From positions 1 to 64,000 of the forward strand of contig NZ_CP061180.1 of assembly GCF_017355405.1 (NCBI RefSeq): DNA of 64,000 nt. The letters are read 5' to 3'. This document shows, piece after piece, positions 16,091-19,789 of this stretch. The position numbers and the translations under genes were made by a program. Source of the stretch: Roseomonas haemaphysalidis. GTDB lineage: Bacteria; Pseudomonadota; Alphaproteobacteria; Acetobacterales; Acetobacteraceae. The notes beneath the pieces are model-generated. The model was not told the origin of the DNA. It worked only from the letters and a program-made list of their open reading frames with translations, and searched no databases. The first letter of the stretch is position 1, and the number at the start of each line of letters is the position of its first letter.

Positions 16091-16352
16091 CACCAAGCTG
16101 GCCGATGCCTTCGCGAAGGCCAAGGGCTAGCCGGTACCACCCAACGAGCTGCTACGGATCGGCGCGCAGGGTTTTGCGGTTAACGAGCTGCAGCGTTTTT
16201 TGGTGCGGCGGGAATACCCGGTGGTGGTGGACGGCATCTTCGGCCGGGGCACCGACGTGGTGGTGCAGCAGTTCCAGCAGGCACGCGGCCTGAAGCCGGA
16301 CGGGATCGTCGGCGCGGCGACCTGGGCCATGCTGCGGGATGGCGAGCGATAG
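16065..16352 (+). pseudogene. Peptidoglycan-binding protein remnant
   Basis: Translation gives FDTKLADAFAKAKG, an in-frame TAG (16128-16130), then a complete PG_binding_1 repeat: LLRIGAQGFAVNELQRFLV, VVVDGIFGRGTDVVVQQFQQ, GLKPDGIVGAATWAMLRDG, ending at TAG 16350-16352. This is the domain found at the end of many cell-wall hydrolases and phage endolysins. The internal stop and lack of a start mark it as the 3' end of a decayed gene. Confidence 0.65.
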
Positions 16353-16374
16353 GGCGGTTGCCCTACCGCTCGCC
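16341..16374. terminator. Bidirectional hairpin after PEP-CTERM gene 1
   Basis: Two 15-base arms, GGCGAGCGATAGGGC and GCCCTACCGCTCGCC, pair with one mismatch around a 4-base loop. It starts 7 bases beyond the stop of the minus-strand PEP-CTERM gene and overlaps the stop of the converging peptidoglycan-binding remnant. Confidence 0.6.
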
Positions 16375-16380
16375 ACAGCG

Positions 16381-16950
16381 TCACGCCTTGCGGCGGCGGA
16401 CCATCGCCAAGCCAGCCAAGCCGGCGCCGAACAGCGCGATGCTCATCGGCTCGGGTACGGAGGTCGGGGTCGAGACGGTCCAGGCGCCGCTCACAGCGCA
16501 GGTGGCTGTGTCGATCCTGCAGGGGGACTGGGCCTGAGCAACGAGGCCGCTGGCCGTAGAACCCGTGCCGGTGAGGCGAGCATCGTAGCTGCTGCCATCA
16601 TAGACGAGGCTGCTCCCGGTCACGTTGCCGACGCTGTCAAACGCCAGGGCGAAATTGATCATGCCAGTCACGAAGCTTGGGCCGACACCATCACGACCGA
16701 TGGTCATGCTGATGAAGCGATCAACATCGCCGCGAAGCGTGGTCTGATTGCCGTTGGCATCGCCGTTGCCGACGATGGAGAAGACGGTCTCAGCGGACGT
16801 CAGCACCAGCTGGATGTTCAGCGGCACGGGGGCAGCAGCGCCCGGCTGTGACACGCCAGCGAAATTATAGATCACCGCAGCCTCGGCCGAAGCGAGCGGC
16901 GCGACGGCAACGGCGGTCATCAAGGCAGCAGCAGCGAAAATGGACTTCAT
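16381..16950 (-). CDS. PEP-CTERM sorting-domain protein (paralogue 1)
   Basis: A 189-aa exported protein: signal peptide MKSIFAAAALMTAVAVAPLA (cleavage near ASA/EAA), a beta-rich middle, and a C-terminal sorting signal beginning VPEP, followed by a hydrophobic helix (SIALFGAGLAGLAMV) and a basic tail RRRKA. Such tails are processed by exosortase and proteins reach the surface or biofilm matrix. No exosortase gene lies in this window. The start at 16950 follows GGGAGGGGATACCT. The promoter 29-46 bases upstream matches the sigma-54 GG-N10-GC rule. The C-terminal tail is nearly identical to that of the neighbouring paralogue. Confidence 0.85.
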   Translation of the reverse strand: MKSIFAAAALMTAVAVAPLASAEAAVIYNFAGVSQPGAAAPVPLNIQLVLTSAETVFSIVGNGDANGNQTTLRGDVDRFISMTIGRDGVGPSFVTGMINFALAFDSVGNVTGSSLVYDGSSYDARLTGTGSTASGLVAQAQSPCRIDTATCAVSGAWTVSTPTSVPEPMSIALFGAGLAGLAMVRRRKA

Positions 16951-16978
16951 AGGTATCCCCTCCCGGAATACAGTGGGA

Positions 16979-16996
16979 GGTTGCAAAACCCATGCC
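16979..16996 (-). promoter_or_regulatory. Sigma-54-type -24/-12 promoter of PEP-CTERM gene 1
   Basis: On the minus strand the sequence is GGCATGGGTTTTGCAACC, with GG at 16996-16995 and GC at 16984-16983, exactly ten bases apart, close to the consensus TGGCAC-N5-TTGCA. The predicted transcript start (about 16971) leaves a 5' leader of about 20 bases carrying the ribosome site. The same 18 bases occur before paralogue 2. Confidence 0.65.
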
Positions 16997-17019
16997 TATG
17001 CGATTTTGGCTCTAAATCT

Positions 17020-17084
17020 ATTGCGTTAAACGGCCGATTAAGAACCGGCGCGCACGATCTGTAAAGAATATGAACGGGGTGTCA
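17020..17084 (-). promoter_or_regulatory. Conserved upstream elements of PEP-CTERM gene 1
   Basis: Two short elements shared with paralogue 2 at the same distances from the promoter: TAACGCAAT (complement of 17020-17028, 24 bases beyond the -24 GG) and a 29-base block at 17056-17084 that matches the other copy at 23 of 29 positions. Their fixed spacing suggests binding sites for an enhancer-binding activator. Confidence 0.45.
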
Positions 17085-17157
17085 GGTAGCGACGGCTATC
17101 GGGCTATCCCGTCTAGCGGGACTATCCACTGCGCTCAGTCGAGCGTGGGGGCATGCC

Positions 17158-17325
17158 GAATTGGTCCGCGGCGGCCATGCGTGGGTGTACCGGCAATACA
17201 TGACCGACCGCTCGCTACTGCCGCTGGAGGCAGAGGCCCGGGCGGCGCGGCGGGGGCTGTGGTCGCTGCCTGAGCGCGAGCGTATCCCGCCCTGGGCGTG
17301 GCGTCGGCAGCAACGGCGGAGATAA
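17158..17325 (+). pseudogene. Thermonuclease (SNase-like) C-terminal remnant
   Basis: Translates to ELVRGGHAWVYRQYMTDRSL, LEAEARAARRGLWSLPER and RIPPWAWRR before TAA, which is the C-terminal part of staphylococcal-nuclease-type proteins (family pattern LVxxGxAWVYR...AxxxxxGLW...PPWxWR). The N-terminal catalytic half is absent, so it is a truncated, non-functional piece left between the two PEP-CTERM genes. Confidence 0.65.
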
Positions 17326-17330
17326 ATGCC

Positions 17331-17368
17331 GCACAGCGCACGGTGGGATATCCCACCGTGCGCTGTGC
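17331..17368. terminator. Perfect 38-bp palindrome, bidirectional terminator
   Basis: The arms begin GCACAGCGCACGGTGGGA and meet at a central TA with no loop, giving a perfect 38-bp palindrome. It begins 7 bases after the stop of PEP-CTERM gene 2 and 5 bases after the stop of the converging SNase remnant, the position of a shared terminator. A T tract is missing. Confidence 0.55.
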
Positions 17369-17374
17369 TTGCCA

Positions 17375-18031
17375 TCACGCCTTACGGCGGCGAACCACTG
17401 CCAGACCAGCGAGGCCAGCACCAAACAGCGCGATGGACATCGGCTCGGGGACGGTGGTGGTGGTGGTCTGCACGCCACTGAATGTGCAGCCCGGCTGACT
17501 GTCGTTTGCTGTGCAAAGGCTGGTGCCGTCGCTGGCGAAGCGCCCGAAGACAGATGCGGTGCCGTCAAACGACAGCCACGAGTTTTCCATGCCGGTGTCG
17601 ACGCGGACGAGGCCTGAGAGCAGACCACCCGCGGCCACGGAGATATCAATCCGGAAGCGGGCCTGATCAGGAAGGCCGAAGGGCGGCGGCGTCACAAAGT
17701 CATTCAGGTCAAAGCTGACCGTGCCGCGCCGCTGTGGCGCGTTGAAGAGGTTGAACGACAGGCCCACGACCCCTTCGAGCTGCGTCGGGCGCGTGCCAGT
17801 GAAGTTGAAGTTGTCCGAATAGGCGCTGAAGCCGTTCAGGGCGGCTTCATCCGTCACCGCCAGCGTGAAGCTGGTGATCACCGGCAGTGTGGCTCCGGTG
17901 TAGGGCGAAGAGGTCGGGCTCTGCGTGGTGTGCGTTGTCTGCGTGAAGCTGTAGATCACGTCGGCCTGGGCCGAGGTGAGCGGTGCGGCGGCCAAGGCGG
18001 CAACCAAGCCAGCGGCGATCAACGACTTCAT
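17375..18031 (-). CDS. PEP-CTERM sorting-domain protein (paralogue 2)
   Basis: A 218-aa exported protein with signal peptide MKSLIAAGLVAALAAAPLTS (cleavage near AQA/DVI), a beta-rich body with two cysteines in CTANDSQPGC, a Thr-rich linker, and the C-terminal VPEP motif, hydrophobic helix and RRRKA tail. It should be sorted by an exosortase encoded elsewhere. The start at 18031 follows GGAGGGGATACCC. It shares its ribosome-site region, its sigma-54-like promoter and its C-terminus with paralogue 1, while the bodies differ, so the pair probably arose by duplication followed by divergence of the exposed part. Confidence 0.85.
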   Translation of the reverse strand: MKSLIAAGLVAALAAAPLTSAQADVIYSFTQTTHTTQSPTSSPYTGATLPVITSFTLAVTDEAALNGFSAYSDNFNFTGTRPTQLEGVVGLSFNLFNAPQRRGTVSFDLNDFVTPPPFGLPDQARFRIDISVAAGGLLSGLVRVDTGMENSWLSFDGTASVFGRFASDGTSLCTANDSQPGCTFSGVQTTTTTVPEPMSIALFGAGLAGLAVVRRRKA

Positions 18032-18060
18032 GGGTATCCCCTCCTGGAACAGATACCTCC

Positions 18061-18078
18061 GGTTGCAAAACCCATGCC
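18061..18078 (-). promoter_or_regulatory. Sigma-54-type -24/-12 promoter of PEP-CTERM gene 2
   Basis: The minus strand reads GGCATGGGTTTTGCAACC, identical over 18 bases to the copy before paralogue 1, with GG at 18078-18077 and GC ten bases later. Predicted transcript start is near 18053, just upstream of the ribosome site. Confidence 0.65.
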
Positions 18079-18101
18079 GGTACAATTCAGCTTACGATTC
18101 C

Positions 18102-18165
18102 ATTGCGTTACGATTTTGGTGGCGACCTGCACTCGCGATATGTAAAGATCACGAACGCGTTGTCA
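18102..18165 (-). promoter_or_regulatory. Conserved upstream elements of PEP-CTERM gene 2
   Basis: TAACGCAAT (complement of 18102-18110) lies 24 bases beyond the -24 GG, exactly as in paralogue 1, and the block at 18137-18165 (TGACA...CTTTACA on the minus strand) matches the 17056-17084 block. These are candidate activator sites. Confidence 0.45.
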
Positions 18166-18188
18166 TGGTACGCAGAGTGACCCTAAGT

Positions 18189-19448
18189 TCAGTAAGCCAG
18201 TACCCGTAGGATGTCCTCCAGCCGCGTCGTGTAGCGCGGTGACAGCCGCTGCGCCCGCGTCGCCCAGCTGCGCGTGAAGCCCGTCGCCGCCACACGCAGC
18301 GTGCCTCGCCCGTAGCGGGCGTTGATCGCGTCCATCACCCCCATGGTCTTGGCCGAGGCCTGGGGACTGCGCGTGGCAAACAGCCGCTGCTGCTGCCCGG
18401 CCGGCACCAGGTCGTTGAGGATCACCCCCGCCTTGGCGTAGCGGAAGCCGTCCCGCCACAGCGGCTCCAGCAGCCGCACCGTCTCGCTGATCAGCGACCG
18501 CGTGTCGCTGGTCGGCTCCATGCGGCAGGCGCGGCTGGCGCTGTACTGCCGCCCCTGCTCGTGCGGGTTAATGTGCAGGAACACCGATAGGTGGCAGGCC
18601 TCCAGCCCGTCCGCCCGCAGCTTCTCCGCCGCCCGCGCGGCATAGGCCGCCGCCGCCTCGCGCATGTCGTCCCAGGTGGTGACCGGCCGGCTGAAGGAGC
18701 GCGTGCAGGCCAGCCCCTTGCGGGTGGCCGCCAGCAGCTGCAGCGGCAGGCAGGACACGCCGCGCAGCTCCATCTGCACCCGCGCGCCCACCACGGTCAG
18801 CCCGTCGCGCACCGCCCGGGCGTCCAGGTTTATGAAGTCGGCGATGGTCTCGATGCCGCTGGCCTGCAGCTTCTCGGTGGTGCGGCGGCCGATGCCCCAG
18901 ACCTCATCCACCGGCAGGCGGCGGTACCAGTCGGCGCGCACCTCTGGATCGGTGAGGTCGCACAGCCCGCCCAGTTCTGCGTGGTCTTTGGCGATGCCAT
19001 TGGCCAGCTTGGCGATAGTCTTGGTCGGCCCCCAGCCAACGCAGGTGGGGATCTTCGCTACCCTTCGCACCTCCTGTCGCAGCCCAGCGCAGAAGCTCTG
19101 GAGATCCACAGGAATGTCCAGGTCCAGGAACATCTCGTCGATGCTGTAGGACTCCACCCGGGGCACCCGCGACACCAGCACGTCGTACACCCGCCGGCTC
19201 ATGTCGCCATACAGGCTGTAGTTGGACGGCAGCCACTGCACCTCACGCAGGTCGCGGCGGTCGCGCACCAGGTGCCAGGCGTCGCCCATCTTGATGCCCA
19301 GCGCCTTGGCCTCGGGGGTGCGGGCGATGGCGCAGCCGTCATTGTTGGACAACACCACCACGGGCTGCGCTCGGAGGGTCGGGGCGAAGGCGCGCTCGGC
19401 CGAGCAGTAGAAGCTGTTGCCGTCAATCAGGCCGTAGACGGCGGGCAT
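18189..19448 (-). CDS. umuC: Y-family translesion DNA polymerase, UmuC-like
   Basis: A 419-aa error-prone polymerase subunit for replication past lesions. The catalytic motifs of UmuC are present: YGLIDGNSFYCSAERAF with the first metal-binding Asp, VVLSNNDGCAIAR, and VESYSIDEMFLDL with the second acidic pair. The helix-hairpin-helix (VWGIGRRTTEKLQASGI) and little-finger region follow. ATG 19448 comes one base after the stop of a decayed umuD-like gene. The polymerase looks intact, and would need UmuD from elsewhere if it functions. Plasmid-borne umuDC operons are common and raise mutation rate under SOS. Confidence 0.9.
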   Translation of the reverse strand: MPAVYGLIDGNSFYCSAERAFAPTLRAQPVVVLSNNDGCAIARTPEAKALGIKMGDAWHLVRDRRDLREVQWLPSNYSLYGDMSRRVYDVLVSRVPRVESYSIDEMFLDLDIPVDLQSFCAGLRQEVRRVAKIPTCVGWGPTKTIAKLANGIAKDHAELGGLCDLTDPEVRADWYRRLPVDEVWGIGRRTTEKLQASGIETIADFINLDARAVRDGLTVVGARVQMELRGVSCLPLQLLAATRKGLACTRSFSRPVTTWDDMREAAAAYAARAAEKLRADGLEACHLSVFLHINPHEQGRQYSASRACRMEPTSDTRSLISETVRLLEPLWRDGFRYAKAGVILNDLVPAGQQQRLFATRSPQASAKTMGVMDAINARYGRGTLRVAATGFTRSWATRAQRLSPRYTTRLEDILRVLAY

Positions 19449-19449
19449 C

Positions 19450-19789
19450 TCACACCCGCTCGCGCACCAGGCTGGCGACCACGGCCCAGATCTCCGCCCC
19501 CTCGCCCAGTAGCAGTGGCTCGCGGTCGGCCTAACCGGAACGCAGCCACCACTGCCCGGCATGCCAGCGCAACTGGCCGAGCAGCACCTCACCGCCGATC
19601 ATGATGATGGCCACCACGCCGGAGCGGGGCTCGGCCGCCGCGTCGACGATCAGCACGTCGCCAGGCAGGATCCCTCGCCGGGCGAGGGCCTCGCCCAGGG
19701 TGATCGCCGGCGGGCGACACAAAGCCGGTGGTCTCGGCGCCCGTGTAGGCGCCCTGCGGCGACAGGTCGGGATGACGCGGCGGGGGCAT
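19450..19789 (-). pseudogene. UmuD-like gene, frameshifted and interrupted
   Basis: From ATG 19789 the frame reads PRHPDLSPQGAYTGAETTGF, typical of UmuD N-termini. One extra C in a CCC run near 19720 breaks the frame; the downstream frame gives PAITLGEALARRGILPGDVL, then VVAIIMIGGEVLLGQLRW, a TAG at 19531-19533, and finally LLLGEGAEIWAVVASLVRER before TGA 19450-19452. In alignment the catalytic Ser (GDSM) corresponds to GEAL and the catalytic Lys (VKRL) to LGQL, so the protease dyad appears lost as well. The gene is directly upstream of umuC. Confidence 0.7.

Follow-up and report, generated by a model that had tools for sequence, protein, structure and literature searches.

The DNA analysed here, called the window, corresponds to bases 1-64000 (64,000 nucleotides) of the 109,709-base contig C4, one of the eight contigs that make up a genome (G000) of 4,898,652 bases. 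Two genes encoding PEP-CTERM proteins, referred to below as the twins, lie on its minus strand, with the following features in and between them.

16381..16950, minus strand: PEP-CTERM gene 1, 189 aa (TIGR02595 26.1 bits, cut-off 16; PF07589 26.2 bits, cut-off 20.7)
16387-16458: sorting signal of gene 1
17331..17368, no strand: perfect palindrome of 38 bp directly past the gene 2 stop codon, read by eye
17375..18031, minus strand: PEP-CTERM gene 2, 218 aa (TIGR02595 25.9 bits, cut-off 16; PF07589 24.6 bits, cut-off 20.7)
17381-17452: sorting signal of gene 2

Read from their ATG start codons at 16950 (gene 1) and 18031 (gene 2), both proteins carry the C-terminal PEP motif, hydrophobic stretch and basic cluster by which exosortase A substrates are recognized, and both match TIGR02595 as well as PF07589. 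The gap upstream of gene 1 extends over 424 nt to the gene 2 stop codon, and that upstream of gene 2 over 157 nt to a polymerase ORF. The palindrome is a possible terminator dividing the gene 1 and gene 2 units; a terminator scan in its vicinity returned only a 6-pair stem at 17329-17343, not above shuffle level.

Contig C4 encodes a MobA/MobL relaxase, a TraG/VirD4-type coupling protein and RepA, and because of these genes it is regarded as a plasmid or plasmid-derived, which agrees with the plasmid-like character that the original prediction had assigned to the segment. Searched against a plasmid collection, the proteins of gene 1 and gene 2 gave zero matches, and the DNA at 16200-19600 matched plasmids solely in the polymerase part of the query (among the best 20 of 332 records). 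Against genome contigs, gene 1 aligned at six loci, in all of them starting only at residue 96, while gene 2 matched at least 16 entries of a protein database at E ≤ 1e-3 (best 7996 candidates scored), the first being the window's own protein. The ORF directly upstream of gene 2 (18189-19592) encodes a Y-family DNA polymerase whose best matches reside on Acidiphilium, Acidithiobacillus and Lichenicola plasmids, which would point to a host among the Acetobacteraceae. The same contig also bears a gene for a GAF-PAS-GGDEF-EAL protein (213-2786); c-di-GMP turnover by GGDEF-EAL proteins is often tied to biofilm.

The shared 18-mer and the -24/-12 core

As the original prediction had noticed, an identical 18-mer, GGCATGGGTTTTGCAACC, stands ahead of both genes on the minus strand, in exact copies at 16979-16996 and 18061-18078. 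The bases between it and the ATG number 28 for gene 1 and 29 for gene 2, equivalent to the predicted distance of 29-30 bases when counted inclusively. The window contains no further copy with three mismatches tolerated (shuffle expectation, 0.09 matches), and in the whole 4.9-Mb genome the exact sequence occurs only twice, each time before one of the twins. At up to three mismatches there are eight genomic matches, four of them before PEP-CTERM genes (reversed-pattern control, 0); among the six inexact sites, with one to three mismatches, a PEP-CTERM gene follows the one-mismatch site and one three-mismatch site. The original prediction had called for a genome search for the 18-mer before other PEP-CTERM genes; its exact form is limited to the twins, and therefore the signal common to the genome is a looser core rather than the 18-mer. 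Within the 18-mer of each gene, this core reads as follows.

16983..16996, minus strand: sigma-54 -24/-12 core GG-N10-GC of gene 1, scoring 13.7, its final C 32 nt ahead of the start codon
18065..18078, minus strand: sigma-54 -24/-12 core GG-N10-GC of gene 2, scoring 13.7, its final C 33 nt ahead of the start codon

The fit to the sigma-54 rule (GG, ten bases, GC) that had been read in the twins extends to most PEP-CTERM genes of the genome. The 98 nt that lie between 110 and 13 nt ahead of each start codon were scanned with a matrix whose weights were set by hand after the sigma-54 consensus (threshold 11 bits). Of the 18 PEP-CTERM genes, 14 have a GG-N10-GC site there, as against 0 of 92 control ORFs (Fisher p 1.7e-14), a comparison that is not fully even, because PEP-CTERM starts were hand-chosen and control starts mechanical, and in which the 18 genes are not 18 independent cases, since some of them are paralogs. 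These 18 genes comprise all matches over the cut-off in the genome to TIGR02595, a model that also exceeds its cut-off in 2 of 14 control genomes; L027 and L028, under the cut-off, were left out. The control ORFs came from mechanical calls across C4, inside the window as well as beyond it, and in three chromosomal stretches, excluding both twins and the PEP-CTERM ORF that adjoins the exosortase gene xrtA. When 5000 pieces of 110 bases were drawn at random from the window, 50 of them attained a score of 11.2. The base preceding GG in the twins is A or C, not T, which counts against the sigma-54 reading.

GG-N10-GC is missing in L022, L024, L025 and L026. The -12 element of L022 reads GG (GG...GG), hence its place outside the 14, and L025 and L026 are weak-scoring PEP-CTERM genes. 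L024 (C4:93666-93734, beyond the window) appears as a broken copy similar to the L018 PEP-CTERM gene: a stop codon interrupts its signal peptide, and the core is missing. Contigs C4 and C5, which represent 3.6% of the genome, hold 5 of the 18 PEP-CTERM genes (binomial p 3e-4) and 3 of the 14 that bear the promoter (p 0.012), an enrichment to be taken as a hint only, because the genes are not independent and C5 is only putatively a plasmid.

Two other search patterns were discarded. The loose pattern GGCAYGNNNNNTGCW alone proved poor evidence, with 58 genome sites against 44 for the reversed control and nine at PEP-CTERM genes; in its subset ending in TTGCW, whose rows were read by eye, 8 of 16 sites were at PEP-CTERM genes. 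An initial consensus, TGGCAYGNNNNWTGCW, gave eight sites (reversed control, 0), four of them at PEP-CTERM genes, and misses the twins. Separately, a sigma-54-like core, GGCATGCGCTTTGCA, was observed at L095 (C1:2858864), shortly before an ORF that by eye resembles a TctC-type substrate-binding protein and could be a non-PEP-CTERM sigma-54 target.

The TTTACA box and the composite promoter

Of 167 proteobacterial PEP-CTERM genes considered by Haft et al. (2006, PMC1569441), 99 are preceded by a motif 1 with TTTACA at its end, which a spacer of 62.8 ± 10.6 nt separates from a sigma-54 motif 2, and PrsR was proposed as the activator; more than 65% of the genes are single-gene units with over 200 nt of non-coding upstream DNA. 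The TTTACA activator box, the second half of the switch, had been absent from the original prediction, as had the 2006 publication of this layout, and is present in both twins.

17060..17065, minus strand: TTTACA, 3' end of the predicted PrsR box (motif 1 of Haft et al.) of gene 1, 63 nt before GGC
18141..18146, minus strand: TTTACA, 3' end of the predicted PrsR box of gene 2, 62 nt before GGC

Like the region depicted in that paper, the twins have a TTTACA-ended box, a spacer near 62.8 nt (63 and 62 nt, with the published motif 2 edges possibly a few nt off) and a GG/GC core, and each may have an upstream region of its own. Of 14 upstream regions screened for TTTACA, a set that includes L022 and lacks L013, eight have it in exact form. 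The composite TTTACA-N57-65-GGC-N8-TGC has 11 sites in the genome versus one for the reversed control, and eight of the 11, both twins among them, lie before PEP-CTERM genes on C1, C3, C4 and C5. These eight promoters and ten from same-family relatives form a set of 18, all at PEP-CTERM ORFs, in which the gap between TTTACA and GGC spans 61-64 nt although 57-65 was permitted, and equals 62 or 63 nt in 16 (binomial p 3e-9 if the nine gaps are equally likely). Compared with the spacer in the consulted text of Haft et al., this spacing is tight.

The similarity of TTTACA to TTGACA could suggest that it is the -35 box of a sigma-70-type promoter driving the genes. Such a role is scarcely credible, given that zero sigma-70-like sites were found at 16200-18300 and that a distance of 62-63 nt to GG-N10-GC (16 of 18 promoters) is unlike -35/-10 spacing.

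A slightly stricter form of the composite, searched in 38 genomes including our own (21 of the same family and 16 at class level), was found in 16 of them. Same-family relatives gave 13 matches (reversed control, 2) in 6 of 21 genomes and zero in the other 15. Ten of the 13 precede a PEP-CTERM ORF, whereas at L121 the ORF ran off the locus, at L122 it is not PEP-CTERM and at L123 it is unclassified. The 16 class-level genomes yielded 18 matches, many of them probably due to chance because the reversed control gives eight; for the 14 of these 18 sites that had loci, a PEP-CTERM ORF was recorded at none, some ORFs running off the locus, and L134 showed a degenerate PEP-CTERM-like end.

Searched with a sequence-only profile trained on the ten promoters of relatives, this genome yielded nine matches with E-values of at most 10 (8.6e-4 to 0.13; best 150 of 293 candidates scored). 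Eight precede PEP-CTERM genes; gene 2 is one of these and the L013 gene another, the latter found although the stretch examined there has no exact TTTACA. Gene 1 was absent from the genome-wide matches (again among the best 150 of 293 candidates), and when the profile was run on the window alone gene 2 was returned and gene 1 was not; the assignment of gene 1 therefore relies on its exact core, TTTACA and the shared 18-mer. The ninth match, a PrsR-type composite promoter at C1:393439-393532, lies about 240 nt before the gene of a protein of 716 aa that combines CBM60 repeats with a GDSL lipase domain (L157:969-3119, equivalent to C1:393768-395918; no TIGR02595 match listed there), and the IHF-like position considered in the last section scores 3 of 9 in it.

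Alternatively, the 18-mer might merely have been left over when one gene was recently duplicated together with its upstream DNA, and be no conserved control element. Gene 1, gene 2, L015 and L017 do have signal peptide, C-terminus and ribosome-site leader in common, and the likeness of the twins lies mainly in those parts. Nevertheless, gene 1 is nearest to chromosomal L015 (86% identical), whereas gene 2 agrees with gene 1 at just 51% of aligned positions and is 47% identical to its chromosomal paralog L023; the 150-nt upstream regions of the twins share 71% gapped identity, where the pairs listed span 54-75%; and PEP-CTERM genes that differ plainly from one another have a similar core and TTTACA spacing ahead of them, both in this genome and in relatives. 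To judge from their sequences, the twins do not resemble the products of a fresh tandem duplication. In view of the paralog identities, the composite sites and the core enrichment, a recent duplication alone appears highly improbable as the origin of the 18-mer.

Regulators and exosortase on the chromosome

The original prediction had called for a genome check for rpoN, prsK/prsR and an exosortase, and all of them are present, each on the chromosomal contig C1. One rpoN was found (C1:763114, 382 bits). PrsR (587 bits, cut-off 502.6) and PrsK (435 bits, cut-off 300), neither of which reaches its cut-off in any of 14 control genomes, adjoin each other at C1:2300587-2304017, with PrsT (452 bits, cut-off 312) next to them. 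XrtA (278 bits with TIGR03109, cut-off 208) is also encoded on C1, where the sole exosortase match of the genome (PF09721) sits, in accordance with the earlier view that the segment on C4 lacks an exosortase. A C1 stretch of about 21 kb comprises PrsK, PrsR and PrsT, XrtA with several of its associated proteins, a chain-length protein, and a sugar transferase near EpsB_2 (358 bits, below that family's cut-off, which is 393); a PEP-CTERM gene directly follows XrtA. The PrsK/R/T and exosortase locus is a further likeness to the systems in the consulted portions of Haft et al.

It could be argued that the sigma-54 promoters obey another enhancer-binding protein, NtrC-, NtrX- or FlbD-like, instead of PrsR, since C1 encodes three other long TIGR02915 matches (333-364 bits), all under the cut-off. 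This alternative is very unlikely: PrsR itself exceeds its cut-off, 8 of the 11 composite sites are at PEP-CTERM genes, and a TTTACA box at 62-63 nt is the motif 1 associated with PrsR in the published description available to us.

Taken as a whole, the twins are best explained, with high probability on the sequence evidence, as PrsR-type sigma-54 units that are regulated and sorted by chromosomal machinery, and the interpretation offered by the original prediction is supported to that extent. The genome sequence itself shows the elements, how they are spaced, that they are enriched at PEP-CTERM genes, and where the regulators and the exosortase are encoded; binding, transcription start, RpoN/PrsR dependence and XrtA processing are inferred. 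Gene 1 and gene 2 would be separate transcription units, each with a PrsR box, its terminal TTTACA at about -94 to -88, and a GG/GC core at -24/-12. Transcripts would start near 16971 for gene 1 and 18053 for gene 2, with leaders of about 21-22 nt that include the ribosome site. Chromosomal PrsK would phosphorylate chromosomal PrsR, which, bound to the box, would touch through a DNA loop the polymerase carrying sigma-54 from the chromosomal rpoN, so that the promoter opens. The twin proteins would then be exported and processed by chromosomal XrtA alongside exopolysaccharide production. Since the regulators and the exosortase reside on C1 and the twins on the plasmid-type C4, the plasmid genes are predicted to answer to chromosomal regulators, and the plasmid would bring cargo that plugs into the chromosomal sorting regulon.

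That PEP-CTERM systems of other bacteria use RpoN with PrsK/PrsR, as the original prediction stated, has precedents in Haft et al. (2006) and in two further reports. In Aquincola tertiaricarbonis RN12 (PMC9850573), the transcription start of pepA was mapped downstream of GG/GC motifs and its transcription depends on RpoN1; Zoogloea PEP-CTERM genes are under RpoN and PrsK-PrsR control, as summarized in PMC9012009. Like pepA, the twins are PEP-CTERM genes with GG/GC motifs, here known from sequence. In the portions of that study available to us prsT lies directly downstream of pepA, whereas the twins are far from the prs/xrt locus and on another replicon; the systems in the accessible part of Haft et al. 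likewise differ from a plasmid-type contig with twin cargo genes whose regulators are elsewhere. The mechanism was published as early as 2006 and has been studied experimentally in Zoogloea and Aquincola, and the twins are a clean further example of it. With a control logic that dates from a 2006 prediction and is backed by experiments in Betaproteobacteria, the surprise is modest. The significance of the finding lies in a predicted full PrsR/sigma-54 PEP-CTERM regulon divided between replicons, with the regulators and the sole exosortase found on the chromosome and part of the PEP-CTERM cargo on other contigs, a plasmid among them.

An IHF-like element between box and core

The consensus of IHF sites is WATCAANNNNTTR, and its reverse complement, YAANNNNTTGAWW, describes a third element located between box and core at a fixed offset of 46 nt from the C of GC. 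Its form in the twins is weak.

17016..17028, minus strand: IHF-like element TAACGCAATAGAT of gene 1, 5 of 9 consensus positions
18098..18110, minus strand: IHF-like element TAACGCAATGGAA of gene 2, 6 of 9 consensus positions

Over the 18 promoters the match averages 6.22 of 9, against 4.39 in the best of 500 spacer shuffles, and reaches at least 7 in ten of the 18. The opposite orientation of the consensus also beats all shuffles, with lower values (5.0, at another offset), and the shuffles are lenient, and exceeded in both orientations, because the region is A+T-rich. Given that the element was spotted by eye on the same 18 promoters, the fair test comes from other promoters. Among held-out promoters of this genome, the IHF-like scores were 7 in L011, 8 in L012, 6 in L015, 5 in L018, 3 in L019, 2 in L022 and 8 in L013, and three held-out same-family composite sites scored 6, 8 and 6. 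Of the 14 class-level composite sites only L134 attained 6, scoring 9, and the three composite sites of this genome away from PEP-CTERM genes scored 3, 4 and 3. Altogether, a score of at least 6 was reached at 7 of 10 same-family held-out sites, versus 0.7% of window positions and 1 of 17 other composite sites. The genome encodes IhfA (125.3 bits, cut-off 120.25).

In IHF-assisted sigma-54 promoters such as those of nif genes, an activator site is followed by an IHF site and then by the -24/-12 core. The order of the candidate sites is the same here, with IHF binding predicted and the site weak in the twins. No published description of a position-locked IHF-like element between the two motifs was found in the open-access literature, where PEP-CTERM and IHF, searched by abbreviation, gave no report on both, the Geobacter co-mentions in the text available being reference-list entries. 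Neither was any mention of such an element found in the accessible portions of Haft et al., which sets the present promoters apart from the arrangement described there, and YAANNNNTTGAWW between motif 1 and motif 2 is possibly an undescribed extra part. We lean slightly towards the view that PrsR-type promoters, in this family at any rate, have three parts, in which YAANNNNTTGAWW would bend the DNA, probably via IHF, and go with the 62-63 nt spacing, and that plasmid cargo bearing such promoters would obey the PrsK/PrsR/RpoN of its host. If this is true, the repertoire of surface proteins would spread on plasmids while control and sorting remain chromosomal. The three-part layout is testable. 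In the same-family relative G021, ahead of the L122 ORF that is not PEP-CTERM, and that either was the wrong ORF to choose or represents another kind of regulon member, the composite promoter carries a strong IHF-like site (8 of 9).
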